A stretch of 64,000 bases of DNA, taken from NCBI RefSeq assembly GCF_019649055.1, contig NW_026570281.1:124001-188000 (forward strand), in the 5' to 3' direction. The translations under genes were made by a program, and so were the position numbers. Shown here in pieces: positions 914-47,191 of this stretch (its first letter is position 1; the number at the start of each line of letters is the position of its first letter). Source of the stretch: Paramacrobiotus metropolitanus (lineage: Eukaryota > Tardigrada > Eutardigrada > Parachela > Macrobiotidae). Under the pieces are notes generated by a model. That model ran no database searches. It had not been told where the DNA came from and saw only the letters and a program-made list of their open reading frames with translations.

Positions 914-1375
914 ATGAAGTGCATCTTGGTGACCCTTCTCTTGGTGGCATGTGTCAGCGCCAACGTTATTCGTGAACGCAGACAACTTTTGGGCGGTAAC
1001 GCTAGCTGCACCGCGGCTCAACAAGCGCAGTGTGGTGAGTGACCTTTTTGGATTCACGTGTTCAAAGGCCGCTGTTCACAAAATTAAAAGACCCTTTTAA
1101 TGCAAGCTATAAATTTGTATTTGTAAAGAGTGATTGTTGCATTGAAAAAATTTAATTATCTCCGGTCTGTAATTGCAGGGTCGGCACAGTGTCAGAATAA
1201 CGGCAACACCAACACTCAGGTGCTGAGCGGCGGTAACAGCGGTGGTGGTGGCCTGATCAGCGGCGTGCCCGTCAACCTGCTGAACGGTGCTGGCGTCCAG
1301 CTGCCCATCAACGCCAACGTCTGCCCGCCCGTATCCGTATGCAATGCATGCTTGGGTGCCAACGTTCTCGGTTAA
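914..1375 (+). CDS. Secreted CQNN-family protein, copy 1
   Basis: Two exons, 914-1034 and 1179-1375; the intron has donor GTGAGT and acceptor TTGCAG, phase 1. The 105-aa product has a signal peptide (residues 1-16, ending VSA) and a processing site RERR|Q after residue 23, which would leave an N-terminal Gln able to form pyroglutamate. A short linker with Cys-32 follows, then QC|GSAQCQNNGN across the splice junction, a Gly-rich LSGGNSGGGG run, and VQLPINANVCPPVSVCNAC. The mature chain has six Cys, consistent with three disulfides. ATG 914 is the first in frame after the TATA box. AATAAA at 1502-1507. The intron carries TGACCTTT (1040-1047) five bases after the donor. No known family is recognised with certainty; a structural extracellular or cuticle-surface role is inference. 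Confidence 0.85.
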
Positions 1376-1629
1376 TTGATTACAGCAACCGATAGTGTAT
1401 TATTCTTTTTATTCTGATGTTTCTTACGACACATTGGCTGTGGACGAATAGTGCACCTGACGAATCCGAAATCTTGTTGACTTGTTAGTATTTGCACATA
1501 CAATAAATTAAATTACTCCGTTTCCTTCTGCCGGGATGAGTTCACAAATATTACCTCATGTGGTTGCAGCGCGATCCGTTGTGTCAAAATTACCTAACGC
1601 CATTTGTCGCAATCTCCAGGCCACATTAA

Positions 1630-2020
1630 AGCAGTAATTAAACACAGTTTATTAATTTTTCACGCATTGCGGTAGTGATAATTAAACTCTTAATTATGCT
1701 GGGAATTAAACATCATGATTAATTCAATTAAAATTATGGCAATTTTGAATTAAGCTTGAGCATAATTAAAATTGGTCAATTCTAATTATACTTAAGCTTA
1801 ATTATAAGTCAAATTAAAAATAATATTTTCTGATAGATCAAAAGAAAATTGAATTTTAATTATGATGAGCAAAATTAAAATTGGGCAATTTTAATTATGC
1901 TCCAGTTTAATTAAAATTGTTGAATTTTGATTATGCTGATCATAATTAAAACTCAGCGATTTTCAATTATGATTAGCTTAATCAAAATTATAAGCAAAAT
2001 AATTTTGATGAGTTTAATAT
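1630..2020. repeat. Degenerate AATTAAAATT tandem repeat
   Basis: About 390 bases made of diverged units of the type AATTAAAATTG..CAATTTTAATTATG, in both orientations. Many units are self-complementary. It looks like a decayed minisatellite or a fold-back array; I see no coding potential. Confidence 0.6.
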
Positions 2021-2811
2021 TCACTACACTGCGGCTTCAGGCTGCTGAGCACCAATTAAATATCAAGTGAATTTTTTTGCTAACTGCAGATACAGGTAAA
2101 TATTCAGTCAAAGCAAACAAAACTGTCGCTAACAGTGCACATACATAGTGACTATAACGCTCCAAATACGGATTCAGCACATTGCTGCTACACTCGTACT
2201 GTAATTAAATGCATGACATGTGTGGAGAAGGCTCAGCCGATACAACATTGAGTTATTATGTTACAATTCAAAATAATTAAATCCTACAAAATTTACAGCG
2301 AAATTTTACACGAACTAATTTCCAGATGAATAATTCAGTACTTGCTGCGCTGTTTAAAGTCATGAATGGTAAACACTGGCTCATATCCCGCAAGTGGCCG
2401 CAACATAATAAGCACCATACATACCATTAGTAATGAAAACAGATTTATTAAAGTTAACAGCGCAAAGTAAACGTTAACAGAATAATTCAACACTATTATT
2501 ATGTTAAGCTTTAATTTTGCAATATCCGGACACTACATCGGAAAGCGGCACGCCGGATGTTATTTTACGATATATACGATTGTGTTGTGCTTAATGCGGT
2601 GTTTATCGTGCATACTGTACATATGTTGTCAACAAAATTTGCCCTTTGGCTATCAACATCGCTCCGTCAACCGACAACCAAGCAGCAATTACACAGTAAC
2701 TTCGCACTAACGAGAAAATAGCGTTCGCTCACGTTTAATGCACCGTGGTAACCGAACACGCGAGCGAAACGGAAATTTCCTACGTGGTCAAACAAATTTA
2801 CTCCTAATGAG

Positions 2812-2819
2812 TATATAAA
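2812..2819 (+). promoter_or_regulatory. TATA box (TATATAAA)
   Basis: TATATAAA 114 bp before the ATG at 2926, matching the spacing of the neighbouring copies. Confidence 0.7.
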
Positions 2820-2925
2820 GAAGCTTCTCGTAGACAGATAAAACAATCCAATTTCACTAGCAAATCTTTACTTCTTCTTCTTCTCTTTACGTCCTAAACG
2901 CTTCCGTCCCTCCTTCGCCGCAACC

Positions 2926-3332
2926 ATGAAGTGCATTCTGGTAACCCTTCTCCTGGTGGCCTGCGTCAGCGCCAATGTTATTCGCGAAAAACGACAACTG
3001 ACCGGTGGTTCCGCCAGCTGCACGGCTGAACAGAAAGCTCAGTGCGGTAAGTAAAGTGTAACCTTTAAAGATTCTATGAAAGTGTTAGGTCTCACCCATA
3101 GTGGCCGTAATTTCATTGATTTATGGTTAATGTAGGTTCGGTGCAGTGCCAGAACAACGGCAACACCAACACCCAAGTTAACAGCGGTGGTAACACCGGT
3201 GGCGCTGGTCTCATCAGTGGCATCCCTCTCAATCTCCTTAACGGTGCCGGTGTCCAGGTGCCGGTCAACGCCAATGTCTGCCCACCCGTGTCCGTGTGCA
3301 ACACCTGTTTGGCTTTCAACATCCTGGGTTAA
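2926..3332 (+). CDS. Secreted CQNN-family protein, copy 2
   Basis: Exons 2926-3046 and 3136-3332 (89-nt phase-1 intron, GTAAGT...TGTAG), 105 aa. Signal peptide, then REKR|QLTGGSASCTAEQKAQC, then GSVQCQNNGNTNTQV in exon 2 and VQVPVNANVCPPVSVCNTC near the end. Exon 1 is almost identical in DNA sequence to exon 1 of the copy at 7518 (about seven differences in 121 nt, clustered at the 3' end), whereas the two exon 2 sequences differ much more. This suggests recent gene conversion or exchange limited to exon 1. The intron has AACCTTTAA where several sisters have TGACCTTT. AATAAA at 3475-3480. Confidence 0.85.
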
Positions 3333-5554
3333 ACGCCAACTCGTGTAATTCTCCTGTCTGGATCGTTTTCGAATTTATGTCCAAAGTTCGGAAAATGTGA
3401 ATGCCACAGTTTCATAATATTTATGAGCTATAAATCCATGAAAATGTGATCGATGAACATTGGTTGACCTTATAAATAAAACGTGAATCAACTAAATTCT
3501 TACAGCCGTATTGTCACGTACTCGTGTATTCGCATACTTCTAGAGTTGTCTGAAAGCATGTTACGAATTAATCGGCGAAAAGTACGCGGTAATACAAATA
3601 TCACACAAGGTTGCTGGCTAAAATGCAGTTTATGAAGCACTAATATTATCTGACACCAACACACTATTTTTAGTGTTATATCTTCTATTATGTATACATG
3701 CAGCAATCTTTTATTAATATATCTTTTGGTGGCCTTTCATTAATTCTGTGAAAGGAGTATGGAGCTTCAAACATTCGGCCACAATATAGTCATTAATCTC
3801 CATATATACGTAAATTAAAACGACAGGTTTTGTATACTCCTTTCTGTTTAAGGTTTTGCTGAAAAGGCTTCGTATTCATAACAAACCGTTATTTAATAAC
3901 CCTTGGTTGGTCTTTGAGGAGAGAGGACTGAGCAACCCACAACTGCTATAAAGTGCAGGTTTTAGCACTTTTTTAATTTAAGTTTTGCTTACTTTAGGTT
4001 TTTACTGTTTATCGATACTTTGTGCAAGACGCGTCGCTGCTAGGTTCACTTTTCATAGCACATACCATCGACCTCTATTGTAAGAATAGTCAGGTTCTTT
4101 TTCCATTGGCCCTCGTAAGTCTTGATATTGGAGAAACATAAATATCAAGACGATTCTAAACCAGAGCCAGGTTTAAGCCGTTTTTCTAATATTTCAGAAT
4201 GATTGTAAATATGAGTTATAAAATGGTGAAAAAGTATTCGGGGTTTGGTTCAGAGTCGTTCGCAAATTTATTTGCCTGTAATTAAAGCTTTGAGAAAGAT
4301 GCGATGATAATCTGATTTGATGCTCCGAAACGCGCTATTTTAGGTGTTACGCGTTACGCACTTAGGGCAAGCGCTTTAGTCCGTTTTCATGAAAATTAAA
4401 ATTTATTTCTAGTACAGCTAGCACTAGGACAACTTACAAACCTCAGTACTCACAAAGGAGACTGCCCTCCGAAGATGCAGTTCTGCAGTTTCGTGACCTT
4501 TTGTAGGCAAGATCTGGCTTAAATTTGCAGCTGCGTATGATTACTGTAGAGCTAGACTACAGAGCCGACAGAAGCGTAGCTCCAGGAAAAACGTGTTAGT
4601 CACGACTCACGGGCGGTCCGCATAAAACGCTATCAATTCCGAGCGACAACGATCCGCAAAATGTGCGGCACAGACCGCACTGTAAACATCCTTATGATTG
4701 TCCGCTTTCTTAGAACAAACTGTACACGTGAACTTGGTCTGTGAGTCGCTCCAGTTCCATTTAAGGTTGCAGGACTAATGCCGCATATTTATTTACTCCC
4801 GTATCGAGTAGGAGTACTTTAAAGGGGCTGAATAATATGATTGCATTGAGTAAAAAAAATTAAATTTCAGAACTAACTTATGGTTAGTGACATACTGTGA
4901 TTTCCATTGAAATCATAATGACAGAGTAAAAAAAACTTGCTTTCAAATTACCTACATGTATTCTGGTGAAAAATGAATAAATTACGAATAACGGCCAACG
5001 CCAGAAATTTCTTTATGTGTAATATTAATGACGACCGGATTGTTTTGCGTAGATATTTTCTCTGTAATTACACGTTCTAACTGTGTATATTATTATGTTT
5101 CTTGGTTCAAAAATGTAATGCTGCAGATAAACGCCATATTCTTTCTCCAACAAAACCACTGAACATTAAAAATATTATAAACGGCTGATGCACAACACGT
5201 TGTTATTGCCAATCAATATGTTGCACCCAGTGTTAATGTTGTTTTTCCACACGTGGAATTGTGGTCAACAAAACATGCCCAGCGGCCTCGCATTCCGAGC
5301 AATAAACCGCAAAATTGAATCGGCAAATACTACTATCGAGAAAACACAGCGTGTTCACGTTTAACACCAGCCGTTAATCATCCATGCGAACGCAACGGAA
5401 TATTCCGCCTGTCGCCAGTAAGTCGCGTGGAAACCACGTCTGTCCAACTATATAATCCGTCGCAGTTCGCGAATAAACTTCACAACCGCAAAACTGCTAA
5501 AAAACTATTACTAACAATTTGTTAAGCCTGTCAAGCCGTTCTTAATCTCTCACA
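3333..5554. other. Intergenic, 2.2 kb
   Basis: No gene recognised on either strand. The distal part, about 5340-5410, contains TTCACGTTTAACACC, similar to TCACGTTTAATGCACC upstream of copy 2 (about 2730), so a shared upstream regulatory block is possible. Confidence 0.45.
5449..5455 (+). promoter_or_regulatory. TATA box (TATATAA)
   Basis: TATATAA 106 bp before the ATG at 5555. Confidence 0.7.
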
Positions 5555-5942
5555 ATGCAGACAGCCGTGTTGATTCTCCTAGTTGCGTGCTCGGCCGCCA
5601 ACGCCCTTCGCTTCGCTCGTCAATTGCCTCTGCCTCCGCTGACAGGCGGCAGCGCCGGTTGCACCGCTGAACAGAAATCCCTCTGCGGTAAGTGCAGCGA
5701 CTGGTGACCTTTGCCAACTCAGCGTGATTTTTTTATGTTTTGCAGGCATGGCACAGTGTCAGAATAACAACAACCAGAACACCCAGGTGATCACCGGTGG
5801 CAACAGTGGAGGCGGCGGCCTTATCAGCCTGATCCCGGTCAATCTGGGCAATGGTGCCGGTGTGCAGCTCCCCATTAACGCAAACGTATGCCCGCCAGTC
5901 TCTGTCTGTGGTGTCTGTGCCGCCGCCAACGTCGCTGGTTAA
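5555..5942 (+). CDS. Secreted CQNN-family protein, copy 3 (MQT subfamily)
   Basis: Exons 5555-5687 and 5746-5942; 58-nt phase-1 intron (GTAAGT...TGCAG) carrying TGACCTTT at 5705-5712. 109 aa. It founds a second subfamily: signal peptide MQTAVLILLVACSAANA, then LRFARQLPLPPLTGGSAGC, so the processing site is reduced to a single Arg before QL. Exon 2 reads CQNNNNQNTQV and ends VCGVCAAANVAG, replacing the VCNAC of the first subfamily but keeping all six mature cysteines. It is nearest to the copies at 43485-43930 and 46794-47191 on the opposite strand of the far cluster, so both clusters contain both subfamilies. Confidence 0.85.
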
Positions 5943-7517
5943 TAAGAGCCTTTATAATATGCGTCTGCTGATTATGTGAACCATATTGGTTTTCTGTATA
6001 TGTTTTGACAAAGCTGCTGTGACCGAATTGTTTCCTGAGACGATATTGTTAAAATGATACGGATGTTGAATTTCCGAATGAATTCATTAAATGACTGTCA
6101 AACACTTTATAAGCGAAGCCGGTAATCAGTACGAAATATAATAATTAAAGTACCGTACGTAAAAATCAATTTGGAATTGTATTAAAGAGCCAGCAATAAA
6201 CAGCACAATGAAAAACAGTTGTAAAAAAAGAGGTCATCTCGAAGCTCTTTATAACGACTTGAGGTTTTTATTAATGTTGTGCTTCCTCGGCCACGTTAAG
6301 TTTTCTTTGTGGGAAAACAGATCAACGGACCTGAGCTCGACCTTGCATTTCTTTGGTGCCTTTGCCGCGACGTATTTGATAAAAGACAAAACTTATGAGG
6401 TCAAGGTTTCTGAACGCGTACATTTCCGGTGCTGGGAATTTCACTTGCAAACTGTACGATCAGTAATCAGAATGCTAAAATTAATAATCATTTCTGCTAG
6501 AACGGTTCTGTTTTAACTTTTAAAAACTACTTGAAAGCCCATTCGTTGTCGTCACTGTTGTGGGAGCAAGGTCCAATAATGCCCAACCCGGAAATGCTGC
6601 AGCGCACGCAACAGATTCACTGTACATACCCGTACCTACAGGGTACAGTGAATTTTGACGGAAAGGTTTCGCACATGAGATGATTTTTAAGGCTTCAGAG
6701 GAACAGTAACCGCGCATAAGTTCATAACTATGAGCGGAAGATTTTAAGTGATGAACCAGCGTGAATGTGCCTAAGTTATTCATTTTTGTATGGTTAATTG
6801 CTCGGCTGTAAATATCGCTGCAGCATAACCACATGAACGAAATACATTTCCTTTTGCAGCGTTAATAATTATTACACCGATTTTCCGATGTGAAAATAAA
6901 TCAGTGTTTCGTTGCATGTTTCTTGGCGAGAATAACATCTTTATTCGTTATGCACGAAAATGCTTTGCCTTCATTACATTAAATTTGTTGGATATCCATA
7001 AAGTTACATGCTTTCAATCATTTTATGTAATATTATTATTTCTATCTGGCGATTATAACTTGTGATTGGGGTTAGTAATAATATCTGCACATACTGACTG
7101 TGTAATTTATGATTCCATAAGAAACATATTTTGATAAACATTGTCCACGCGTAAATAATTATGTGGCCACAAAACAGCCGCAAGGTGTTGTACATGCATA
7201 GGTGTGTATCTCTACGCTGCATACCGCCGCTATTACGGCGGCCCCCATGCGAAAAAGCGGAGCAATCCGGCGCCACCAATTAGCAGCAACATTTTCACGA
7301 AAACAGCCTTGTCACAGTCGTTCGTCCTTGCAAACGAATGGCAACACACATCCATCGGCACTTCCCCAAGTTGTTTACGCCAAAATACAGGCGCCGGTGT
7401 CCGAAATATAAAACCGCATTCACCCGAGACGCTGATCAGCATTAAGCTAGTCGACTTAACACAAAAGCACTTTTTCTTCGCAAAATACGCGTCTCTTCTC
7501 CTCCCTTCGCCGCAATC
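5943..7517. other. Intergenic, 1.6 kb
   Basis: No gene supported. ORFs at 6208-6516 (+), 6520-6834 (-) and 7004-7279 (-) have no recognisable domain or splice context. An AATAAA at 6195-6200 may end the transcript of copy 3. Confidence 0.4.
7407..7413 (+). promoter_or_regulatory. TATA box (TATAAAA)
   Basis: TATAAAA 111 bp before the ATG at 7518. Confidence 0.7.
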
Positions 7518-7894
7518 ATGAAGTGCATTCTGGTGACCCTTCTCCTGGTGGCCTGCGTCAGCGCCAATGTTATTCGCGAAAAACGACAACTGACCGGTGG
7601 TTCCGCCAGCTGCACGGCCGAGCAGAAAGCCACATGCGGTAAGCGTCACCACTGTAACATCAACTCGTTTTCTGTACCTGAACAGTGTGTTTTACAGGTC
7701 TCGCGCAGTGCCAGAACAACGGTAACAGCAACACCCAGGTGGTCAGTGGCGGTAACACTGGTGGCGGCGGTATCCTCAGCCTGGTGCCCATCAACGCCCT
7801 CAACGGAGCCGGTGTGCAGGTGCCCATCAACGCCAACATCTGCCCACCCATCAGTGTCTGCAATGCCTGCTTGGCTGCCAATGTCCTTGGTTAG
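7518..7894 (+). CDS. Secreted CQNN-family protein, copy 4
   Basis: Exons 7518-7638 and 7698-7894; 59-nt phase-1 intron (GTAAGC...TTACAG), 105 aa. REKR|QLTGGSASC processing region as in copy 2, exon 1 ending EQKATC; exon 2 GLAQCQNNGNSNTQVV, then VQVPINANICPPISVCNAC. This intron lacks the TGACCTTT octamer, so the element is not needed for splicing. A 139-aa ORF on the opposite strand overlapping exon 1 is a shadow. AATAAA at 8168-8173. Confidence 0.85.
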
Positions 7895-8893
7895 CGGCTT
7901 TAATGTGTTCTTACTTGTTTGACCTGTTTGATGAGCGGACGTAGCTGTCTGCATGGGTGATACCGCTGTATTCATTAACTGATTTAATGAGCACTTCCTC
8001 GGGGCCCTCATAATATTTATGAGTTATGGCACTAGATTTTTTCTCAAGTCAGCGTCTTTTGTGGAGACTACTCAAATTAAAGAAAAGCCAAATTTAATTA
8101 CCGCATTCCCGTGCTGCCACAGAAAACAACCTGTTGCTTGCATCAGTGCGTACGTTAGTACAATTCCAATAAATTAATATGCAACGTCTAACGACTTCAT
8201 TGTACTGACTTCCTCTCGGACCAGTAGTTTGAAATGTTCCCCGAACGAAAATTAGACCACCTTACACAACTATTTCGTTGCGTACTTTCACTGCCGTACA
8301 CAATATTAACTGTGACCGTAAAAGTTTTTCCGCAGAAATTTTTTCACATTAAAAATCAAAAAAAGTACTGTACACAAACTAGAAAACTGAATCCGGCAGT
8401 GTCAGCCATACAAGTACGCATTCTTTGGTGGCTGTCATGGCTGCAACACAGGCACAGCTATTGGCGGACGGTTGTTGTTGTTGCACTTGCTACAGTTCTA
8501 TCGAGCAGCTATACAGCAGCCGATTGATAGCAAATAACAAGTCACGTTGGGAATTTTCTGTTCTAAAATAATTATTAATCAAAATCAATGCCGGCAGCAT
8601 ACACTCTGTACACTTCGTTACTGCGATAAAGTAGGCAGCGTTACGAAGAAACACTGAATTCTTGTTTGCTCTAAATGCGATCCTAAACATGCTTTCCAAA
8701 TTGCAATTATACCCATCATTGATTCGTACGTAGTATACGGTATACCCAACAACTGCTGGCACACTAAATGTTTTTTAGCGCATAGTTTTCATCACAATAC
8801 ATTTCCTACGAGGCAGGAAGCAGCGCCGACTGGAACGAATATCTGCAAGGCATTACTTCAGTCTACAGATTTGGCATTTCTGTCGTTGTTATC
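7895..8893. other. Intergenic, 1.0 kb
   Basis: 3' UTR of copy 4, then no gene recognised. I see no clear TATA box at the expected place (about 8780) for the next gene. Confidence 0.45.
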
Positions 8894-9325
8894 ATGAAGT
8901 GCATTCTGGTAGCTCTCCTTCTCGTTACGTGCACCGAAAGTAGTGTCGTCCGCCTGCGCCGGCAACTGCCTGGATTGGACAGTCTGGGCGCCTTGGCCGG
9001 TGGCAGCCCGTTAGGCGGTTTGACTGGCGCTCTGGCTGGTCAGCCGGGTGGCGGAGCAACCGCTGGTGGTGCCGGCTGCACAGCCGACACAATTGCACTC
9101 TGTGGTACGCAGAACCTGCTTTGTTACATATATGCTCAAAGAATGCGTTCGTTATTCGATGGTTTGTTTATTTTAGGAATTCCGCTGTGCAAGAATCAGT
9201 TAGGTAGCGGCGGTAACGTGCAGGTGATCAGCGGTGGCAATACCGGTGGCGCGGCTTCCAGTGGTGTCTGTCCACCGCCTTCTGTGTGCAGCATGTGTGC
9301 CGGCGCAAGTATCCTCCCAGGTTGA
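8894..9325 (+). CDS. Divergent CQNN-family protein, copy 5
   Basis: Best model: exons 8894-9104 and 9177-9325, phase-1 intron GTACGC...TTTTAG, 119 aa. The signal peptide MKCILVALLLVTCTESS and RLRR|QL site are kept. Exon 1 then carries a Gly/Leu/Ala-rich insert of about 40 residues (PGLDSLGALAGG...) before the conserved GCTADTIALC. Exon 2 is shortened: GIPLCKNQLGSGGNVQV keeps the first Cys and the VISGGNTGG run but loses the VQVPINAN block, going straight to GVCPPPSVCSMC. The 72-nt intron is a multiple of three with no stop, so the unspliced reading frame is open (143 aa). Donor GTACGC is shared with the other divergent copy (32226-32935). AATAAA at 9484-9489. Confidence 0.75.
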   Translation: MKCILVALLLVTCTESSVVRLRRQLPGLDSLGALAGGSPLGGLTGALAGQPGGGATAGGAGCTADTIALCGTQNLLCYIYAQRMRSLFDGLFILGIPLCKNQLGSGGNVQVISGGNTGGAASSGVCPPPSVCSMCAGASILPG

Positions 9326-10479
9326 CTTCCCAAGGCAACTTCCCGTGACTGGAGTCTACGGATTTTTAATCATTAGGCCGTTTGTTGATACGCTCCTATA
9401 TGGTCTACATGCTGTCTGCTCATTTTTAATTATTTTCCGAAAGGAAAAAATTGTGGTCGCTCGTGTGTTTCTGGTACTGAACGAATAAATTTTGGTTTCC
9501 TATTGGCAGTAAGCAAATAAGCCAAATCCGTGCTAGAAGTAAAGTGTTAAGTGCTAACTGTCGAGTTTCCTCACAATAGGTCTTGAATAACAAAGGGTTT
9601 ATAATTTATTGTTACAGTAATTTCATAAGTACGTATGTAATAATTCCAGCCGATCAGAATTTGCAAGATACGAGTACATTTTACGGGCTTTTTCACACTT
9701 ATTGGCCTTGCTGAAGGGCAAGTGTGTTTTTTGTACTTCTACGGCATGCTTCGTCATATTCAGAAACAAAAAAATTTCTGTGCTGAATACATTCCAAGGA
9801 TTTGTTGACGCTCTAGAAAGCACAAGCGGAACTGAATTACGTACGCAGAACACAAAGAGACCGCCTAGGAATAAACCACGGCAAAATTTTCCGCAAACGT
9901 GTCACCAGTTTTTAGGTTAATGAAGTTGAAAATCACAGTGACAGAAACCACTCAAGCGAGCCATAGTCGTTCTCTAATGCCGGTATACGAATTAACATTT
10001 GATGCCGCAACGTTATTCATTGCCACAAGTTGTCCGGTAAAGTTAAAGTAATAATATCCCATGCCAAATGACACTTAACTATTACTCAATATACAAAAAA
10101 CAATGCGTGGCCCTTATATGGAGTCGACTGTGGACGTTGTAATAGCATATGTTGTCTACCCGTGACAGGCCACAAGTAGCGAAGTCAAACGTTTAGCTTC
10201 CGGAAACATGACAGCATCGAACAAAACTTCCTCAGCCGCTGTTGTAGAAAGAGACAATAACAGCATCTTTGCGTCGTAGGCTGCTGGAAATATTCTGGTG
10301 AATCACAAACATTTGCCCCGAACGGGACAATTCCGAAACCAAGTACCGCATGCCGACAGCGACTTGTATAAAACGCTGTGGCAAACCGCAACTGAAGCAC
10401 TTGATTATTGTCGGTCTCACTAAAAAATCATACGTTTTTAGCATTACTATTATATTTTGTGATCGTTTTTTAACCGAAA
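9326..10479. other. Intergenic, 1.15 kb
   Basis: 3' UTR of copy 5 and promoter of copy 6; nothing else recognised. Confidence 0.45.
10367..10373 (+). promoter_or_regulatory. TATA box (TATAAAA)
   Basis: TATAAAA 113 bp before the ATG at 10480. Confidence 0.7.
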
Positions 10480-10971
10480 ATGAAGTGTATGTTTGTGGTA
10501 ATTCTTCTGGTGGCCACTGTGAGTGCCAAGGCCTTCCGGGAACGCCGTACAGCGGACGTTGGAGCCAGCGGAGGAGCGAGTGCGGGAGCCGGTGCCAGCG
10601 CAGGCGGTTCCCTGCCGGGTCTGCCTTCTCTTCCCAACCTGCCCACCGGTGGCGGTGCTCTGACCGGCGGCTCGGCTAGTTGTACGGCCGATCAGAAGGC
10701 AGCATGCGGTAAGCTTAATAGACAATCATGACCTTTTGCCCAGCAAGGCTGATAACATAATACTTATTTGGCAGGTATGGCGCAGTGCCAGAACAATGGT
10801 AACAGTAACACCCAGGTGATTGGTGGCGGTAACAGCGGTGGTGGTGGCCTGATCAGTGGAGTGCCCATAAACGCTCTGAACGGTGCTGGTGTCCAAGTGC
10901 CCATTAATGCCAACATCTGCCCGCCGGTCTCCGTCTGCAACCTCTGCTTGGCCGGAAATGTTCTCGGGTAG
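10480..10971 (+). CDS. Secreted CQNN-family protein, copy 6, with long Gly/Ala/Pro linker
   Basis: Exons 10480-10708 and 10775-10971; 66-nt phase-1 intron with TGACCTTT at 10729-10736. 141 aa, the longest copy. Signal peptide MKCMFVVILLVATVSA, processing site RERR|T (the usual Gln replaced by Thr), then a low-complexity insert rich in Gly, Ala, Ser and Pro (SGGASAGAGASAGG, LPGLPSLPNLPTGG) before the conserved LTGGSASCTADQKAAC. Exon 2 is standard in length and sequence: GMAQCQNNGNSNTQVIGGGN, VQVPINANICPPVSVCNLC. Length variation in this family is confined to exon 1, just after the processing site. ATTAAA near 11203 may be the polyadenylation signal. Confidence 0.85.
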
Positions 10972-12780
10972 AGCGACAAAGAAATGCACCACTTTCAGAT
11001 GTTTCCGGACTGTGATGTATTAAGTACATTATACTTATTCATACTACGAGACTTTGTTACTGTTTGTGAACCGTCTCGCTGACACGAGTTCGGCTCTGCC
11101 CAGTTGCTGCCATCTTTGTTGGTTAGCTTTATGTCAGCTGTTTTTGATTATATATAGGTGCTATGTTTTCTGATGTACACTATCATACAAACGATCTAAG
11201 AACATTAAAGATACCAAAAATTATTCGCTAAGTTGGCTTGCATTAATTCTTGTATGGGAAAATTAACCCATATACATAAACATTCAGTTGATTAACTGCC
11301 AATAATTTAAAAAACATCACTACCTGCTTCGTAAATTCATTTTCTTCCTGGTCCAAGCGCGGAGTGTTTGAGTATTGTCTGAACTCTCTTCTGGTGCACG
11401 CATTTCTTGGCACCATTTTGCCAATCGATGGAGATTGGTGAAACAGAGTGACTGTATATCTATTTGGAATATTTTGGTTTTGGTAAATTTACATGCACAC
11501 ATTGGTGATACAGCTACATACAGTAAGTACCTGCTGTAGTCCTATGCATAAAAATAACATTAGTATGCAAGGCAATGAGTTGTTTTGTATGTCTTTGTAA
11601 GCCATTCCGCAAGAGTTTGGTATGACACTGATGGAAGAGATTCTGACTTGTTCTCGTTTTCGCTCGCAAAACTATCTCGGTGACATCCTGAAAGAAGACC
11701 AGTTATCGTACATCGGTGTCAGTTGATAACTTTTAGCACGAACAAGAGCGCATTTAGTAGGTTAGTGGCGGCAGAGCCGACGACGAGGGCAAGGAGTCTG
11801 CCATACAATACTGGAAATCCTGGAGACAAGGTTGTTGTGAAACTGTACTCGTGTCTTATCTGTACTCTATGACAGTTTGTGTAGACCTGGAATCTATGGT
11901 TCGCCAAACCGTCATGGCGGCTTGGCGTGCGCTATTTTGGGCGTAACTTCGAAGCCCGGGTTTTAAAGCCCAGCAATATGTATGTGCGAGTACTTATAAT
12001 CTTCTGTACAGTGCAGCGGATAGCAAAGTCCCGGGCATATAGCCCCGGTAGGTATAGCTCCTATTTCAAATTCCTATAATTTTTAAATTACGCTTTGCAT
12101 TACGCATTTATTATCTAAAGCGAAAGTCAGATGCTGACCAATTGGCTTGCCATATCCTGAATATGTCCTTTACTAACAACCTGGCTGCAAGCCTGCAAAC
12201 GTTTAATCAGTGGAAATTAACGGAAACTGGGCACTGTCACGTTACCAGTCAGCGGTGCGACTTTTTCGCTAAAAATACGCACTAGTTGTTGTCTTTTGTA
12301 GAAATATGTTATTCCGCTTCTCTAACTCAGCCATTTTTCAGCACCGCTGCACAGTTGACAGTGTGTTATACAAAGAAAGCAATTACCAAACTGTTGTGTG
12401 GTTGCTGAAAGCCTGAAATACTATTCGTTGCCGCAACGTCTCGATTTCGACAGCCGAGACAGCGTAAAAGCCAGAACGTTTCCGCGGAATGGTACAATCC
12501 TCCTCCCAAGTCAGCCGATGAGCGCTGACAATGCGTTCAACAGTCTCGGCTTTTGCGTGCATGTGAAACTTGAATGCGGCTCCCGGCAAAATGACAACAT
12601 TCTATTTCGAATTATAGGGTTTTACCTAACAGAAATTTATTTCAATACTTTGTCTCGAGCATATCCGTATATAAACAACTGGATGGTTGCGAGAAAACCA
12701 TACGAGTCCGAATCAAACCGGTGCAGATTAAATACGAAATTGTACAACTTTCTGTTTCCCAGCTCTATTTCGCAACAGCC
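10972..12780. other. Intergenic, 1.8 kb
   Basis: No gene supported. ORFs at 11320-11502, 11719-11907, 12383-12589 (-) and 12398-12799 (+) show no domain or codon pattern I trust. The promoter of the next copy lies at the end. Confidence 0.4.
12668..12675 (+). promoter_or_regulatory. TATA box (TATATAAA)
   Basis: TATATAAA 113 bp before the ATG at 12781. Confidence 0.7.
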
Positions 12781-13299
12781 ATGCAGATCATCCTGGTGAC
12801 CCTTCTTTTGGTAGCCTGCACCAGCGCCAGTGTTCTTCGTGAGCGCCGACAGCTGACCGGCGGCAGCGCCAGCTGCACCGCCGAACAAAAAGCTCAGTGC
12901 GGTAAGTGAAAGTGACCTTTGTCTAGAATGGCCGTTGCTGTGTCAAATTACTTATTTCTGCATGTTTCCTTATTTGACGCCTACAGCAAAAAAAGCAGAA
13001 AGTGCGTTTCATACGAAAATCACCAGATCCTTATTGCCCCCGTCAAGCGATAATTTATAGTATAAATAAACTGTGGAACTTTAACAATATGGTATCTTTT
13101 AGGGATGGCACAGTGCCAGAACAACGGCAACTCAAATACCCAGGTGATCAGTGGCGGTAACACTGGTGGCGGCGGTCTCCTTAGCTTGGTGCCAATCAAC
13201 GCCCTCAATGGAGCCGGCGTACAGGTGCCCATCAACGCCAACGTCTGCCCACCGATTTCCGTCTGCAACGCCTGCTTGGCTGCCAACATCCTTGGTTAA
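12781..13299 (+). CDS. Secreted CQNN-family protein, copy 7
   Basis: Exons 12781-12901 and 13103-13299; 201-nt phase-1 intron (GTAAGT...TTTTAG) with TGACCTTT at 12913-12920, eleven bases after the donor. 105 aa. The signal peptide starts MQII rather than MKCI, as in most - strand copies (35227, 38108, 40416), then RERR|QLTGGSASCTAEQKAQC. Exon 2: GMAQCQNNGNSNTQVI, LLSLVPINALNGAGVQ, VPINANVCPPISVCNAC. An in-frame ATG 60 bases upstream (12721) is judged not used because sister genes align from 12781. AATAAA at 13370-13375. Confidence 0.85.
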
Positions 13300-32225: not shown

Positions 32226-32935
32226 CTAGCCGCCAAGCCCACTTCCGACGGAAGCTGCTAAACAAACATTGCAGATTTGTACTGATGGGCACAGATTGAC
32301 GTTAATGGGAGCTTGCACGCCGGCGCTGTTGAGGACGTTGGCCGGCACCACGCCCAACAAAGCTGGCCCGCCACCGCTGTTGCCGCCACCCAGCACCTGT
32401 GTGTTCTGGTTGTTGTTGTTCTGACAAACGATGTTTCCTGCAAAAATTCCCGTTTTCATTTACTATTTACTCATTCTTTGTATTCGATCGAATAACTATT
32501 TAAACCAAAAAATTTATCTACGGAAACTGCAAAAGACGCCAAACTGCTAGCTAAACCGGATTGGATGTTTCGGGTCACGCACTTACGATCAGTTTAGTAC
32601 TAGAAACTGTAGAAGCAAGTATATCGGTTACCATTACCAAAGCATGTAAAAAAAAATAAAATTATTCATTTCCATTTCGCATTTGGTACTGCAATTTGGT
32701 TAGCATGCGTTTAACGGCAAGTATCTGTACAAAATTAATAGCATTTGACTATATATTACAGAGAATGCGTACCACAAAGAGCTCTGTCATTGGGAGTGCA
32801 GATGGCGCCGGGGCTGATCCCTCCTGCTGGGACGAGGCTTCCGACACCGGGAAGTGGAGGAAGTTGGCGACGGAAGCGGTGATTATAGGCACTCACGCTG
32901 GCGAAGAGCAAAAAGGCGAAGATCACACACTTCAT
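32226..32935 (-). CDS. Divergent CQNN-family protein, copy 8
   Basis: Exons 32935-32773 and 32437-32226; 335-nt phase-1 intron with donor GTACGC, as in copy 5. 124 aa. Signal peptide MKCVIFAFLLFASVSA, then YNHRFRR|QLPPLPGVGSL, a Pro/Gly linker and GAICTPNDRALC. Exon 2 begins GNIVCQNNNNQNTQVLGGGN and then diverges: VVPANVLNSAGVQAPINVNL is followed by CPSVQICNVCLAASVGSGLGG, so CPP is CPS and the tail is longer. An in-frame upstream ATG (32965) is rejected because the signal peptide starts at 32935. The only TATA-like box (TATAAAATA, 32967-32975 on the - strand) is 32-40 bp before the ATG, unlike the sister genes, implying an almost leaderless mRNA or another promoter. Confidence 0.8.
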
Positions 32936-34837: not shown

Positions 34838-35227
34838 CTAACCCAGAATATTGACAGCCAGACACGTGTTGCAGACAGAGACCGGCGGACAGACATTGGC
34901 GTTGATGGGCGCCTGCACACCGGCACCGTTCAGCAAATTCAACGGGATCAGACTGGCCAGACCGCCGCCTCCGCTGTTGCCGCCGCTGATCACCTGCGTG
35001 TTGGAATTACCGTTGTTCTGGCACTGAACCGAACCTGCAAATCCATATGAATTGCTTTTAATTAAGCCTGCTATTTTTAACTTTAAAGGTCACTTACCGC
35101 ACTGCGCTTTTTGGTCTGCTGTGCAACCTGCGCTTCCGCCCGTCAGGGAAGGCAGTTGTCGGCGTTCACGAATGACATTGGCGCTGGCGCAAGCCACCAA
35201 GAGAAGGGTCACGAGAATGATTTGCAT
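34838..35227 (-). CDS. Secreted CQNN-family protein, copy 9
   Basis: Exons 35227-35098 and 35034-34838; 63-nt phase-1 intron with TGACCTTT on the sense strand (35092-35085), five bases from the donor. 108 aa. MQIILVTLLLVASASA signal peptide, RERR|QLPSLTGGSAGCTADQKAQC (a three-residue insert after QL), then GSVQCQNNGNSNTQVISGGN, LASLIPLNLLNGAGVQ, APINANVCPPVSVCNTC. Exon 2 is close to the copy at 37730-38108 but exon 1 is not, another sign that the two exons have mixed histories. Confidence 0.85.
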
Positions 35228-36901: not shown

Positions 36902-37204
36902 ATGAAAAGAATCGTCCTCTTGTTGATCGGTCTGGCCGTGCTGGCTACGGCCGTGGCGCACTACGTTCCCGGGATTCCGCTCGACCAGCTAGAAGCGCAC
37001 GGTTATCAACCGGACGAGACGCAGCCGGGTCGCTACAAGCGCCAAGTTCCGGCGGATCCTCGACGGGCACTGGCACCCGGCACCGGCGTCGCCGCACCCA
37101 CAAAGCCTCCAACCACTGTTATCGTCGCGACATCTGGCGATTGTTGCTGCGTTATTATAATAAATGGAAATAGCGTGTGTGTTATTTGCGTCTGTCAAGG
37201 ATAA
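36902..37204 (+). CDS. Small secreted protein with Cys-rich hydrophobic C terminus
   Basis: Not recognised. 100 aa, single coding exon; ATG 36902 follows a TTTTTTGCAG acceptor at about 36862, so the leader is probably spliced. Signal peptide MKRIVLLLIGLAVLATAVA (1-19). R44-Y-K-R47|Q48 is a furin-type site followed by Gln, like RERR|Q and REKR|Q in the CQNN proteins around it. A Pro/Arg linker and PTKPPTTVIVA lead to residues 81-98, CCCVIIINGNSVCVICVC: six Cys alternating with beta-branched residues around an NGNS turn. It lies within the - strand CQNN cluster but on the opposite strand. It may be a partner or very distant relative of that family; homology cannot be shown from this sequence. 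A long ORF in another frame over the same bases (36823-37173) is considered a shadow. Confidence 0.65.
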   Translation: MKRIVLLLIGLAVLATAVAHYVPGIPLDQLEAHGYQPDETQPGRYKRQVPADPRRALAPGTGVAAPTKPPTTVIVATSGDCCCVIIINGNSVCVICVCQG

Positions 37205-37729: not shown

Positions 37730-38108
37730 TTAGCCCAGAATATTGAGACCCAGACACATGTTACAGACGGAAACCGGTGGGCAGACATTGGCATTGATGG
37801 GCGCCTGTACACCGGCTCCATTGAGAAGATTCAGCGGGATCAGGCTGGCCAAACCACCACCCCCGACGTTGCCGCCACTCAACACCTGTGTGTTCTGGTT
37901 GCCGTTATTTTGGCATTCCACCGAACCTGCAAGAGTACATTCATTACCTACGCGCACCGTAATTGTTTTTTCGCGAAGGTCACTTACCGCACTGCGCTTG
38001 CTGGGCGGCTGTGCAGCTGGCACTGCCACCGGTTAGTTGGCGCCGTTCACGGATGACGTTGGCGCTGGCACAGGCCACCAGGAGAAGGGTCACCAGAATA
38101 ATCTGCAT
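37730..38108 (-). CDS. Secreted CQNN-family protein, copy 10
   Basis: Exons 38108-37988 and 37926-37730; 61-nt phase-1 intron (GTAAGT...TTGCAG). 105 aa: MQIILVTLLLVACASA signal peptide, RERR|QLTGGSASCTAAQQAQC, then GSVECQNNGNQNTQV (Glu instead of the usual Gln before Cys), LASLIPLNLLNGAGVQ, APINANVCPPVSVCNMC. The intron has TGACCTTCG, one mismatch from the octamer, in the usual place. Exon 1 is very similar in DNA to that of the next copy (40416). Confidence 0.85.
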
Positions 38109-39592: not shown

Positions 39593-39851
39593 TATAAGAA
39601 AACGACTTGCTGCAGGACGTTCGGCAGAAGCACGCTATCGTATCCTTCAGTTTATTTTCCACATTATAATACTATGAATGAACTGAAGTTCAAATGACAA
39701 AGCTTCCCGCAAATATTTGGCAAATCATTATTAGTGCAGTATAAATTAGATCAATCAACCGGAAACCCAGTTAACCGATACCAGTAAAAAGAACAGGATA
39801 ACCGAAACATGAAGCGCCATTCACAGAAGGTCACTATATATTTGCAACGGT

Positions 39852-40416
39852 TTAACCAAGGATGTTGAGACCCAGACACGTGTTACACACCGACACCGGC
39901 GGGCAGACATTGGCGTTGACCGGCACCTGGACACCGGCACCGTTGAGGGCGTTGATGGGCACCAGACTGAGAAGGCCACCACCACCGCTGTTGCCACCGC
40001 TCAACACCTGAGTATTCTGGTTGCCGTTGTTCTGACACTGCGCCGAGCCTGCAGAATGAAGCGATACGGTCAAAGCAATGCACAACTCCCACTATTTCCT
40101 TCAGTTTTTGACAATTCATTTACGGGATGTAACGCTAGTTAACATTATATGCGTGTATCCGATACTGAAACAGAAACGAACTGACAAAAATCTTAAAAAA
40201 ATGCAAGTGTAAAAGTTTTACACGATTGGTTAATATATTATAAATATATCGATGCGGTGGAGCTTATTCGTTGGAATATTAAAAGTGTCACTTACCGCAC
40301 TGCGCTTGCTGCGCAGCCGTGCAGCTGGCACTGCCACCGGTCAGTTGTCGGCGTTCACGAATGACATTGGCGCTGGCACATGCCACCAGGAGAAGGGTCA
40401 CCAGGATGATCTGCAT
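39852..40416 (-). CDS. Secreted CQNN-family protein, copy 11
   Basis: Exons 40416-40296 and 40048-39852; 247-nt phase-1 intron. 105 aa: MQIILVTLLLVACASA, RERR|QLTGGSASCTAAQQAQC, GSAQCQNNGNQNTQVLSGGN, LLSLVPINALNGAGVQ, VPVNANVCPPVSVCNTC. The intron begins GTAAGTGACAC, an incomplete version of the TGACCTTT element. Exon 1 differs from copy 10 at about a tenth of positions or less, mostly silent. The long ORF covering the intron (39852-40085) is read-through from exon 2. Confidence 0.85.
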
Positions 40417-41724: not shown

Positions 41725-42343
41725 TTATCGTCTTTGGTTTGTAGCTCTGCACACACTGCACTGGGCAGAGGTGGGACAATTGTTTACGCTGGAGCCCGGT
41801 GGAAGCTGACCTGAGCCGCTTCCGCTGACAGGAATTTTAATACCAAACATGGACTGCAGGACAGCGGCGGCGGCAGCATTATTCGCCGCGCTGTTACCTG
41901 ACCCGCCGACCTGCGTGTTTACATTCCCGTTGTTTTGGCACTGCGCCGGCTGACCTGCAGAGCCGAAAAAAGATAAGTATTTAAAAAATTTGCAAATTGC
42001 CAGGAATCGTCTTACTTATGATATCAACCTTAGCGCAAAGTAACTAAGAGTTGACGCAATAATAAAAATCAGAAGGTTTCCCGGTGCATTACTGCCGAAA
42101 ACAATACTCGTATTCGAAAAACAAACGTCATCTCAACTCTGTCTGTACTCTGTACAATTATTGTATGAGTGAAGTGGGATACTGTTGCTCATTAATGGCC
42201 ACATAATCTTAACGACACTTACTGCACTGCGCTAACTGTGCGGCCGTACATGTGACGCTCCCGCTGGTCTGCCGGGAGAATCGGAGGGCATTAATACCGC
42301 CAACACAGGCCGCAACGAACAGGATCAGCAAACCGGTCTGCAT
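41725..42343 (-). CDS. Divergent Ala-rich CQNN-family protein, copy 12
   Basis: Exons 42343-42223 and 41954-41725; 268-nt phase-1 intron (GTAAGT...CTGCAG). 116 aa. Signal peptide MQTGLLILFVAACVGGINA, LRFSRQTSGSVTCTAAQLAQC. Exon 2 starts SQPAQCQNNGNVNTQVGGSG, recognisably the family, but the middle is replaced by NSAANNAAAAAVLQSMFGIK and IPVSGSGSGQLPPGSS. The end is NNCPTSAQCSVCRATNQRR, so the C..C..C spacing survives while CPP, VQVP and the hydrophobic terminus are lost. The predicted C terminus is basic. It has no start-codon ORF of its own in exon 2, so it is easily missed. Intact frame and sites argue for a working gene. Confidence 0.75.
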
Positions 42344-43484
42344 CTTCAATCTGCTGCGAAAAAAATATTTTACTCACGTACGGTAAGTTGGGAGGAAGTC
42401 ATTAATTGCACTTAATATTAATGTGGTGTGTGACAGCGGATGTCGACTTATAACTTTATATATGCGGCGGTTAGCGTGACAGAAAGTTGGTGTTGTTATC
42501 CGCACAGTTATAGTACGAGTACATACTAATGAATGGAAATGTCCGTATTGCGTATACCGTTAAACTGCAATGCGGTGAGTGCACGCTTGCTTGTTGACAG
42601 CCGTGACGCGGCGATTCAGAAGCATTGATTCACTTTCCCAAAAGTGTTGACTTGTTGATCAAGTCGACGCTATATCTCTACAAAACAGTTTGAGTGTATG
42701 TTTTCGTATTAATTTATTGTGAGCGGCGATCAATTTCTCTCAACGTGCAGACTACTGTAGATACATTTTTATAAGTGTCGTGCATGCAGCGTGTCTTTAT
42801 CAAAACAACTGTACGTACGCTGGACTTCAAAATGGTGATAACACATTTACCTACCCATATACAGAGCGTTATCTGCTGTGGGTGATACCATAATTATTGA
42901 GTGCACTGTATACCTATACTGCTCCATGAATTACACCGTGTGAGTACTTGAGTTACGAGTATTACTGTTGTCAACGAATATTTGCAGCTGCTTTCTTGCC
43001 AATTATTTTGCACGTGGACGCCGCGCCGGCAACAAAACGTGCACAGATGTCAACGTTTTCTTGTACCTATACGTCGGAAGTTAATAAGGCAAACCCCAAC
43101 CATTTTTTTGCAAAGGCATGACGTTTTAAAATAAGCGGCATTTATTCTGCCATATTACATATATGTATGTATATATTACACCGGCTGTGATCTGCCATAT
43201 TACTTATTTACATTGTCTTAATCCCATTAGAATTTTGTATAATGATTTCGCGGTCTCGTGAATCCTGATCGTGGCTTATCAACGCTGCGCTGTTTAATCA
43301 GAACCACTCGGCGCGGGGAGGCAAATTAGACCGATTTTCAATTTATTACCGGATCACTATAAATGACAACCAACATGGTGTAAATTCTTTACAACAAAAC
43401 ATTCGTGAAAATTCGATCTCCGCATAACAACATGAGAAAATCAAGATAAGAGAAGAAAGTTAGTCGCACAAAACGTATGTTCCC
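42344..43484. other. Intergenic, 1.1 kb
   Basis: Promoter of copy 12 at the left; an imperfect duplication of TCTGCCATATTAC at 43147-43205. No gene recognised. Confidence 0.45.
42455..42462 (-). promoter_or_regulatory. TATA box (TATATAAA)
   Basis: TATATAAA on the - strand about 112 bp before the ATG at 42343. Confidence 0.7.
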
Positions 43485-43930
43485 TTAGCCAGCAACATTA
43501 GCAGCGGCACACAACCCACAAACGGAGACGGGCGGGCAGACGTTGGCGTTGATGGGCAGTTGCACGCCGGCACCGTTGCCTAAATTGACTGGGATGAGGC
43601 TGATGAGACCGCCGCCTCCGGTGTTGCCACCGCCGATCACTTGCGTGTTCTGGTTGTTGTTGTTTTGACACTGCGCTTGACCTGCAAAAACACGGAAAGG
43701 TCAGGCCGGCTGGTTTATCCGTCGGTCATCAACCGTTGTGCACCTACTACAGGTCAGCCATAGTGTGCTGACAAAATAAAGTGATTGTTGCACTTACCGC
43801 AAAGGGATTTCTGTTCCGCCGTACAGCCTGCACTGCCGCCCGTCAGCGGGGGCAGCGGCAGTTGGCGAGCGAAGCGGAGAGCGTTAGCGGATGCGCACGC
43901 AACGAGGACAATCAACACGACCGTCTGCAT
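43485..43930 (-). CDS. Secreted CQNN-family protein, copy 13 (MQT subfamily)
   Basis: Exons 43930-43798 and 43681-43485; 116-nt phase-1 intron with TGACCTTT on the sense strand (43703-43696), here nearer the acceptor than the donor. 109 aa: MQTVVLIVLVACASANA, LRFARQLPLPPLTGGSAGC, TAEQKSLC; exon 2 GQAQCQNNNNQNTQVIGGGN, LISLIPVNLGNGAGVQ, LPINANVCPPVSVCGLCAAANVAG. Its closest relative in the window is copy 3, 38 kb away on the opposite strand. The residue after the splice Gly (Ser, Met or Leu in most sisters) is absent, so the junction reads CGQAQC. Confidence 0.85.
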
Positions 43931-45704: not shown

Positions 45705-46140
45705 ATGCATACTGCTATTCTCATGATCACTCGTTGCCTGCGCTAGCGCCACGAGAAAATGGAAACGGGAGAGAAAATGGAATTTTTCCTTCCTCGTGGC
45801 GCTAGCTCTCCTGGTATACTCGCCAACTGCCTGCACCGTTGGCGGGGCTGCCAGCTGCTCCACCACTTACGGGTGGCAGTAGTGTCTGCGCCGCGGAACA
45901 AAGAGCATACAGTAATGCGGAAAGTAATGCGGAAAGTATTCGTATACAGAGGAGGAGGTGCGTTTTGCAGGTCTATCGCAGTGTCAAACTAACGGCGACA
46001 GCAACACACAAGGACTGTTGCAGTCGGGCAACCAAACGGGTCCGTCATCAGCGGCGTTCCCATTAATGCGCATAGCGGCGCCGCCGCGCCGGTATCCAAG
46101 AGCCCATCAACGCCGATGCACTTCACACTGGTTAACCGAG
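45705..46140 (+). pseudogene. Broken CQNN-family copy (MQT subfamily)
   Basis: Remnant of a two-exon family gene on the strand opposite to its neighbours. Exon 1 begins MHTAILMITRCLR and meets a stop at 45744. The stop lies in a 65-base segment bounded by perfect 14-bp inverted repeats (45742-45755 and 45793-45806) that looks inserted. After it the frame resumes with QLPAPLAGLPAAPPLTGGSS and VCAAEQRAYS, matching the subfamily linker. After an acceptor-like TTTTGCAG, exon 2 starts GLSQCQTNGDSNTQG and then shifts frame; VISGVPINAHSG and PINADA are readable only in other frames. Several independent lesions make it non-functional. Confidence 0.75.
45742..45806. repeat. Inverted repeat inside pseudogene
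   Basis: Arms GCTAGCGCCACGAG and CTCGTGGCGCTAGC, perfect complements, with 37 bases between. Probably a small inserted hairpin that broke exon 1. Confidence 0.7.
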
Positions 46141-46793
46141 CAACTGTACAAGTACAACAGTGTTTCACGACCTAAACGTACTGTAAGCACGTAGTAACAT
46201 TTTCATCGAATTGACGCCCACTAATATTCAGTGTGAACTTAATTATCATGATGTAGGGCATTGCTTGTCGGCCGGTTATTTGAGATCTCTGGCTAGGTCT
46301 TTGCAATGGCTCGGTCTCTCTCTCCTTTCCAACGGTTCCGGTTGCTGCCCTACGGCAGCCTCTTACTGAAATCGGCACTGTCCTGGGTATGAGAGTGTGC
46401 GACCGACTAGTCTTGAATAATTGTATTTATCGAGTCCGGAGTTTTTATAAGCAGGCGCGACTCTTATCAAGTCCAGCATCATCATAAGACGGTGCCGGAT
46501 GCACAGCGAGCTGATACGGTTACTTGTGTTTCAACTTTTTCTTGTCGTCTACCGTTAAACTCGCAAAATTCACTTGGATTCTGCAAAATCTGCAACTGCA
46601 AAATCAGTTTTAATTATTTAAGGATCGATTATTTAAGGATTTAAGGATTTAATAATTGGCGATCTTTACTTTGAATCCACTCCAAGAAGCATATTTTCAA
46701 CAAACATAGTTGTGCAACAAAAGTTCTCTCAAGATCGAAACCATTAACCAAAGCAAGTGAGTTGCATAACATATTTATTACAATTTACAACGC
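46141..46793. other. Intergenic
   Basis: Repeated ATTTAAGGAT units at about 46610-46650; nothing else recognised. Confidence 0.45.
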
Positions 46794-47191
46794 TTAACCG
46801 GCAATATTGGCGGCCGCACATGCGCCACAAACAGAGATTGGCGGGCAGACGTTGGCGTTGATGGGCAACTGCACACCGGCACCGTTGCCCAGGTTGACCG
46901 GGATCAGGCTGGCCAAACCGCCACCACCGTTGTTGCCACCGGTGTTCACCTGGGTGTTTTGGTTGTTATTGTTCTGACACTGCGCCAGACCTGCATAGAT
47001 AGGGAAAGGTCACGATGAGCTGACAATTGTAATCAAGAAATGTTCTTACCGCAGAGGGATTTCTGTTCAGCGGTACAACTAGCAGTGCCACCTGTCAGCG
47101 GGGGCAGCGGCAGCGGCGGTAGTTGGCGAGCGAAGCGAAGGGCGTTGGCGGCCGAGCATGCCACAAGGAGAATCAAAACGGCAGTCTGCAT
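46794..47191 (-). CDS. Secreted CQNN-family protein, copy 14 (MQT subfamily)
   Basis: Exons 47191-47050 and 46990-46794; 59-nt phase-1 intron (GTAAGA...ATGCAG) with TGACCTTT on the sense strand (47012-47005). 112 aa: MQTAVLILLVACSAANA, LRFARQLPPLPLPPLTGGTA, SCTAEQKSLC (three residues longer than copies 3 and 13 through a PPL/PLP repeat). Exon 2 GLAQCQNNNNQNTQVNTGGN, LASLIPVNLGNGAGVQ, LPINANVCPPISVCGACAAANIAG. Signal peptide identical in sequence to copy 3. Confidence 0.85.

Follow-up and report, generated by a model that had tools for sequence, protein, structure and literature searches.

A multi-copy family of small six-cysteine, secreted-looking proteins in the tardigrade Paramacrobiotus metropolitanus, a candidate for extracellular coat material

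The genome of the tardigrade Paramacrobiotus metropolitanus (RefSeq assembly GCF_019649055.1) carries an expanded family of small two-exon genes whose predicted products are secreted-looking, nearly uncharged, and built around six cysteines. The family was recognized in a 64,000-nucleotide stretch of contig NW_026570281.1 (forward strand; C61:124001-188000 in our contig numbering), referred to here as the window, and comprises at least 26 intact copies across the assembly. On balance, we lean toward reading it as a secreted coat protein family expanded for dosage and organized like the chorion arrays of insects. For an uncharged, Asn/Gln/Gly/Ser/Thr-rich, cysteine-bearing secreted chain present in more than 20 near-redundant copies, a structural role outside the cell is the best reading.

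Array layout and gene structure

Searches of the window with both exons (tblastn) located 14 intact two-exon genes and two broken copies (Table 1). Seven intact genes run head-to-tail along the plus strand (914 to 13299) and are followed by seven more, also head-to-tail, on the minus strand (47191 to 32226). With the intron placed between exon 1 and exon 2, the reading frame is open to the stop in all 14. An earlier reading of this DNA made from the letters alone (the sequence-only reading) had counted the same intact and broken genes, in the same orientations, and had set the outer bounds at the first and last exon 1 starts, and all of this was borne out. As the full extent of the array, its range of 914-47191 proved too narrow, for the array continues beyond the left edge of the window.

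The whole assembly (169.8 Mb, 533 contigs) was searched, with copy counts to be taken as lower bounds. Seventeen intact copies lie on the window's contig, including three outside the window to its left; the other nine are spread over seven contigs: C19, C360 (two), C8 (two), C97, C128, C427, and C68. A search with exon 2 gave 25 matches, of which 24 fall in intact genes and the remaining one in the broken copy at 50017. Their E-values, from 2.2e-17 to 2.8e-34, exclude a chance origin of the likeness; this search did not list the divergent copies at 8894 and 42343. The corresponding search with exon 1 gave 26 matches, those on C149 and C57 probably being noise. The stretches that contain the C427 and C68 copies match at 95.5% over 1.9 kb; these two copies may be alleles, which would bring the number of distinct loci to 25.

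All copies share one gene plan. Exon 1 encodes a signal-peptide-like start, judged by eye from its hydrophobic N-terminus, followed by a short propeptide, an R-x-x-R site, and two cysteines of the mature part, while exon 2 encodes four cysteines and then the stop. The single GT-AG intron is in phase 1, measures 58 to 335 nt in the intact window genes, and lies directly after a cysteine codon. The R-x-x-R site, the phase-1 intron after a Cys codon, and the six mature cysteines recur in 26 of 26 intact genome copies, and frame and splice sites are kept in every one, the acceptor having been reset in three copies to the site used by the others.

In its finer points, this plan departs in places from the sequence-only reading, which had proposed a signal peptide, an R-x-[RK]-R|Q site, an intron at exactly one codon (QC|G), an exon 2 of 197 nt in 11 of 14 genes, and six conserved cysteines. 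The exon 2 length (the remaining genes having 149, 212, and 230 nt) and the cysteines (14 of 14) held, and the N-termini are signal-like. The cleavage site takes the proposed form in 10 of the 14 window genes and the form R-F-[AS]-R in four; Gln follows the cut in 13, with Thr at 10480, and in 25 of 26 copies genome-wide. The phase-1 position after Cys is invariant in the window, and the next residue is Gly in 13 of 14 genes (Ser at 42343), but Gln precedes the Cys in just seven, so that C|G describes the junction better than QC|G.

Exon 1 is 121 or 133 nt long in 16 of the 26 copies, and 25 chains end in Gly. The linker that separates the cut from the first cysteine has 8 residues in the commonest form; it is Gly/Ala-rich at 8894 and 10480, and the C8 and C128 copies have one of Pro-Ala-Pro-Ser-Val type that is about 80 residues long. 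The three members of this last subfamily read elsewhere in the genome (loci L005 on C8 and L007 on C128) are intact, and its sole member in the window, at 50017-50628, is broken.

Table 1. Coordinates of family copies in the window and of chaplin-domain genes elsewhere in the genome
Feature	Position	Strand	Details
Intact copy 1	914..1375	+	exon 1 914-1034, intron 144 nt, exon 2 1179-1375
Intact copy 2	2926..3332	+	exon 1 2926-3046, intron 89 nt, exon 2 3136-3332
Intact copy 3, RFAR|QLPLPP subfamily	5555..5942	+	exon 1 5555-5687, exon 2 5746-5942
Intact copy 4	7518..7894	+	exon 1 7518-7638, intron 59 nt, exon 2 7698-7894; acceptor by homology
Intact divergent copy 5	8894..9325	+	exon 1 8894-9104, short exon 2 9177-9325 (149 nt); six Cys retained
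Intact copy 6, Gly/Ala/Pro-rich linker	10480..10971	+	exon 1 10480-10708, exon 2 10775-10971; Thr replaces Gln after cut
Intact copy 7	12781..13299	+	exon 1 12781-12901, intron 201 nt, exon 2 13103-13299
Intact divergent copy 8	32226..32935	-	exon 1 32935-32773, intron 335 nt, exon 2 32437-32226 (212 nt)
Intact copy 9	34838..35227	-	exon 1 35227-35098, exon 2 35034-34838
Intact copy 10	37730..38108	-	exon 1 38108-37988, intron 61 nt, exon 2 37926-37730; acceptor by homology
Intact copy 11	39852..40416	-	exon 1 40416-40296, intron 247 nt, exon 2 40048-39852
Intact divergent copy 12	41725..42343	-	exon 1 42343-42223, exon 2 41954-41725 (230 nt); C|S junction; Arg-Arg end, not Gly
Intact copy 13, RFAR subfamily	43485..43930	-	exon 1 43930-43798, exon 2 43681-43485
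Intact copy 14, RFAR subfamily	46794..47191	-	exon 1 47191-47050, exon 2 46990-46794
Broken copy	45970..46117	+	exon 2 remnant; three pieces in three frames
Broken copy, Pro-Ala-Pro-linker subfamily	50017..50628	+	exon 1 with stop and frame change; exon 2 with stop
Three chaplin-domain genes	C167:109047, 113827, 119656	+	loci L010-L012, L112, L113; tandem
Diverged chaplin copy L114	C41:792532 area		23.7 bits, above cut-off of 21
Diverged chaplin copy L015	C32:1099036 area		18.1 bits, below cut-off of 21

Composition, constraint, and promoter-like elements

The mature chains are 82 to about 160 residues long, Asn/Gln/Gly-rich or Pro-rich, and nearly devoid of charge. Charged residues number 46 of 2,466 (1.9%) over the 26 copies, a total in which the model of L007 includes one surplus Gly. 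Net charge is -1 or 0 in 25 of the 26 chains and +4 in the divergent copy at 42343, and aromatic or His residues number zero to three per chain.

Selection was gauged on the 20 copies with a 65-codon exon 2, which give 190 pairs, 186 of them with a finite rate of synonymous substitution (dS). Mean proportions of nonsynonymous (pN) and synonymous (pS) differences in exon 2 were 0.15 and 0.56 over the 190 pairs, and the ratio of nonsynonymous to synonymous rates (dN/dS), a rough measure here, had a median of 0.16 and exceeded 1 in none of the 186 pairs, as expected under purifying selection. The conservation of exon 1 exceeds that of exon 2 by a small margin: within one subfamily, represented by 14 copies, pS averaged 0.39 over the first 66 nt of exon 1 against 0.51 in exon 2, and exon-1 pS fell below half of exon-2 pS in 14 of 91 pairs. 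The nearest relative of a copy differs between the two exons in 12 of 20 copies. Gene conversion or exchange of exon 1 among copies is plausible but weakly supported by these figures.

In 21 of 26 copies a TATA-like element stands within -119 to -95 of the ATG, and the wider interval from -160 to -25 holds one in 22 copies, compared with 10.8% of 5,000 random stretches of the window, although the counts are not independent because the copies are related. Codon bias was considered as a proxy for expression (pooled effective number of codons 37.8; G+C at synonymous third positions, GC3s, 0.71) and discarded, as several of the control exons were wrong-strand or actin-related rather than actin. 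Taken together, the features of sequence, constraint, and promoter mark the genes as maintained and expressed-looking, with constraint on the mature chain, and do not in themselves give the time and place of use.

Two further recurrent elements were observed in and around the genes. The word TGACCTT occurs in 13 of the 26 family introns in forward sense and in none reversed (for example at 1040, 5705, 10729, and 12913 on the plus strand and 35092, 37982, 43703, and 47012 on the minus strand). After shuffling of the introns it was found 0.2 times on average and at most three times (500 shuffles), and the best 7-mer of any kind reached 8 (100 shuffles). Its rate in family introns is about 20 times that in the rest of the window, yet 23 of its 31 window occurrences fall outside the introns of intact copies, and a genome-wide count gave 180 for GTAAGTGACCTT and 40 for a reversed control. 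TGACCTT may be a general intron feature; a role as branch point was rejected because of the misfit in copies where the word is at position 6. The word resembles a nuclear-receptor half-site. In addition, a palindrome around TAATATTTA lies 71-112 nt past the stop in six of 26 copies (2926, 7518, 35227, 38108, L002, and L006). Its arms co-vary, being CATAA..TTATG in four copies and CGTAA..TTACG in two, and it is possibly a hairpin of the 3′ untranslated region or a DNA element.

Known relatives, chaplin genes, and neighbouring features

That the family has no obvious known relative, as the sequence-only reading had it, stands for Pfam, NCBIfam, PDB sequences, GTDB genomes, and IMG/VR. Pfam gave no family for two whole proteins at E<=1 and no credible family for 22 of the 26 exon-2 copies (a single stray at E 0.12), and the best stray in NCBIfam had an E-value of 0.075. 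Neither scan returned a chitin-binding cuticle domain or any other curated secreted family, nor the strong profile match to a described family that the sequence-only reading had named as the result that would count against it. The best hit of a PDB profile search, DJ-1 at E 0.013, was set aside as a chance product of Gly-rich composition. GTDB genomes and IMG/VR yielded no relative, leaving a bacterial or archaeal origin without support, and among the papers listed in literature searches on tardigrade secreted or cysteine proteins, cuticle, and eggshell, no title or abstract describes the family. By these searches, the family is undescribed, and none of the five resources gave a relative.

One resemblance called for closer comparison. 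The family segment NGAGVQVPINANVCPP recalls the SGNxxQVPVHVPVNVCGN segment of chaplins, and true chaplin genes occur elsewhere in the same genome. Three such genes lie in tandem on contig C167 (Table 1). Each opens with a signal-like stretch, carries a basic site, is interrupted by a phase-1 GT-AG intron of 115 to 123 nt, and ends in a C-terminal Gly; exon 1 measures 133, 133, and 136 nt. The intron falls in a Gly codon and splits the motif SPGV..G|N, and reading through it without splicing meets in-frame stops. Once spliced, all three genes match the chaplin domain ChpA-C (PF03777), the first with 65.4 bits and an E-value of 4e-18. In GTDB genomes, 467 of 528 pattern-matching stretches encode chaplin relatives; the best 80 of these come from Streptomyces or near relatives by title (one bearing only "Actinobacteria bacterium"), and among these 80 identity to the tardigrade genes is at most 80% over 40 residues and 83% over 35. 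That C167 is part of the animal genome, and not a bacterial contaminant, follows from the family of a gene neighbouring the chaplins, which has 53 matches at E<=0.01 spread over many contigs, large ones included. Apparently, to judge from sequence, the chaplin genes were acquired horizontally from actinobacteria, and they are duplicated in tandem. In a tree of the short cores, without support values, the three animal chaplins do not form their own clade, their common ancestor embracing 11 tips of which 8 are bacterial, so that the tree fixes neither the donor nor the number of transfers. Among the papers listed in literature searches, no report of chaplins in tardigrades, or of chaplins as a horizontal transfer, was found, and the main texts of PMC5531438 and PMC13342648 do not contain the word.

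Homology between the family and these chaplins is not supported. ChpA-C was not listed at E<=10 for 22 of the 26 exon-2 copies, a scan in which HMMER drops most matches above 0.1, and a genome-wide ChpA-C search marked six places, none of them a family copy; one of the weaker places, on C318, looks unconvincing. When the family profile was compared (hhalign) with a profile of aligned chaplin cores, 80 from bacteria and three from the animal, the score was 12.1. Column shuffling produced scores at least as high in 49 of 200 trials when applied to the chaplin alignment and in 54 of 200 when applied to the family alignment, and the reversed chaplin profile scored higher, at 15.65. Comparison with the three animal chaplins alone gave nothing. 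What the two groups have in common is a small secreted chain nearly without charge (1.9% charged residues in the family, 2.1% in the 80 bacterial chaplin cores) and a short Gln-Val-Pro / Asn-x-Cys motif; they differ in cysteines, with six in the family and two in the chaplin cores examined.

Several other features of the window and the genome were recorded. Amid the family copies, at 36863-37204 (+), a single open reading frame (ORF) encodes a secreted-looking protein with KR|Q ahead of its mature part and a hydrophobic, Cys-rich tail (CCCVIIINGNSVCVICVCQG), without a Pfam match. Right of the array, pieces of a sugar transporter gene lie at 57553-59112 (+; Pfam Sugar_tr), and among ten further window ORFs only the second of these pieces had a family above the cut-off. 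Fourteen copies of a 9-nt unit (CCTAAGAAA) occupy 59945-60073, flanked by 189-nt inverted arms (59702-59890 and 60072-60260) that are 71% complementary. Two places in the genome encode KR-NSEILNTLIGLPAKLRLR-G and KR-NSEILNTLIGLPARLKLK-G, peptides that have NSEILNT and IGLP in common with the pigment-dispersing factors He-PDF-2 and He-PDF-3 of the tardigrade H. exemplaris as given in passages of PMC11879619. GC content over 208,925 letters of the assembly (overlapping parts entering twice, L015 not included) is 43.6%, close to the 43.46% given for P. metropolitanus, as Paramacrobiotus sp. TYO, in PMC8277472.

Proposed role and competing explanations

The nearest organization known to us is that of the chorion locus of the silkmoth (Bombyx mori), an analogy of arrangement. 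According to passages of PMC4639761, that locus is a cluster of genes for small secreted proteins in which exon 1 is the minor coding part, exon 2 the major one, and exon 1 the better conserved of the two; TATA boxes are present, late Cys-rich members cross-link the coat, and most A/B chorion genes form divergent pairs under a common promoter region. The tardigrade genes likewise form tandem two-exon arrays with a small exon for the putative signal peptide and TATA-like boxes. They differ in matching no Pfam family of any kind and in the mildness of the exon 1 advantage. Another expanded secreted family of tardigrades is known, the secretory abundant heat-soluble (SAHS) proteins, as described in part of PMC8277472. 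A lipocalin search aimed at SAHS found an ordinary fatty-acid-binding protein. SAHS proteins are fatty-acid-binding-protein-like and are not known to have the six-cysteine pattern seen here.

Under the coat-protein reading, duplication, mostly within one cluster, would have placed many promoters in front of nearly the same product. A furin-type protease would remove the propeptide, the exposed Gln would cyclize to pyroglutamate, and a near-neutral chain with a hydrophobic four-cysteine exon 2 part would be secreted in bulk. Disulfides could then lock the chain into an extracellular coat, be it a surface layer of the cuticle, an eggshell, or a secretion, and spacing would be tuned by the Gly-Ala or Pro-Ala-Pro linkers that separate the cysteine core from the cut and vary among copies. 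The eggs of macrobiotid tardigrades are ornamented and laid free, and the cuticle is moulted, which makes eggshell and cuticle both candidate sites; a glandular secretion is likewise a candidate. The expanded, dosage-driven system for extracellular material suggested by the sequence-only reading fits the signal-like start, the R-x-x-R site, the low charge, the cysteines, the purifying selection, and the TATA-like boxes; that dosage drove the expansion is something we infer.

Several observations weigh on the other side. A Gln start and a Gly end are also what a doubly blocked secreted peptide would be expected to have, the dN/dS values are rough because synonymous sites are close to saturation, and the tardigrade copies stand head-to-tail rather than as divergent pairs with a shared promoter. 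An AlphaFold2 prediction for exon 2, drawn from 12 of the 14 window copies, reached a mean predicted local distance difference test score (pLDDT) of only 43.9, a result that neither backs nor rules out assembly into a coat.

Other functions for such a family can be weighed against the same data. Small, secreted-looking, Cys-rich tandem genes with subfamilies and two broken copies could belong to soluble defence or surface interaction (antimicrobial, opsonin-like, or anti-parasite), expanded for diversity and not for dosage. This is unlikely, given that the chains carry almost no charge where a cationic antimicrobial would be net positive, that no pair shows diversifying selection, and that Pfam gives no match. 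Less likely than defence is a chaplin- or hydrophobin-like self-assembly at the air-water interface, whether derived from the acquired chaplin genes or convergent. The motif pair NGAGVQ-P-I-NANVC and SGN-QVPVH-PVNVC, the matching scarcity of charge, and the gene plan of the C167 genes, with exon 1 lengths close to those of most family copies, speak for it; the absence of ChpA-C matches and the shuffled and reversed profile scores speak against it. We are more doubtful still of the specific proposal that the family builds such a self-assembling interfacial layer, of amyloid or hydrophobin type, as a far-diverged product or functional partner of the acquired chaplin genes.

Equally improbable, in our view, is a secreted peptide signal or pheromone, for which the R-x-x-R cut, a pyroglutamate N-terminus after the nearly invariant Gln, and conversion of the C-terminal Gly to an amide would be natural; the mature chain is long for such a role, Asn/Gln/Gly-rich or Pro-rich, and nearly uncharged, and 26 near-redundant copies would, in our judgement, be unusual for a hormone. 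The explanation to which we give least weight is a passive tandem-duplication cluster under birth-and-death drift, in which dosage would play no particular part. Drift of that kind would account for the two broken genes, for the three window copies that have diverged strongly, and for the extra copies scattered elsewhere, but frame, splice sites, and six cysteines are retained throughout, purifying selection acts on exon 2 in all 20 copies tested, and TATA-like boxes accompany most genes.

To our knowledge, the make-up of the tardigrade cuticle, ornamented eggshell, and mucus is poorly worked out. A conserved, multi-copy, secreted-looking family would supply named candidates for a component of cuticle, eggshell, or secretion, in an animal seen to maintain a large array whose members have a conserved mature chain and TATA-like boxes. 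Should the family prove to form a film at interfaces, animals would have a counterpart of their own to chaplins and hydrophobins.

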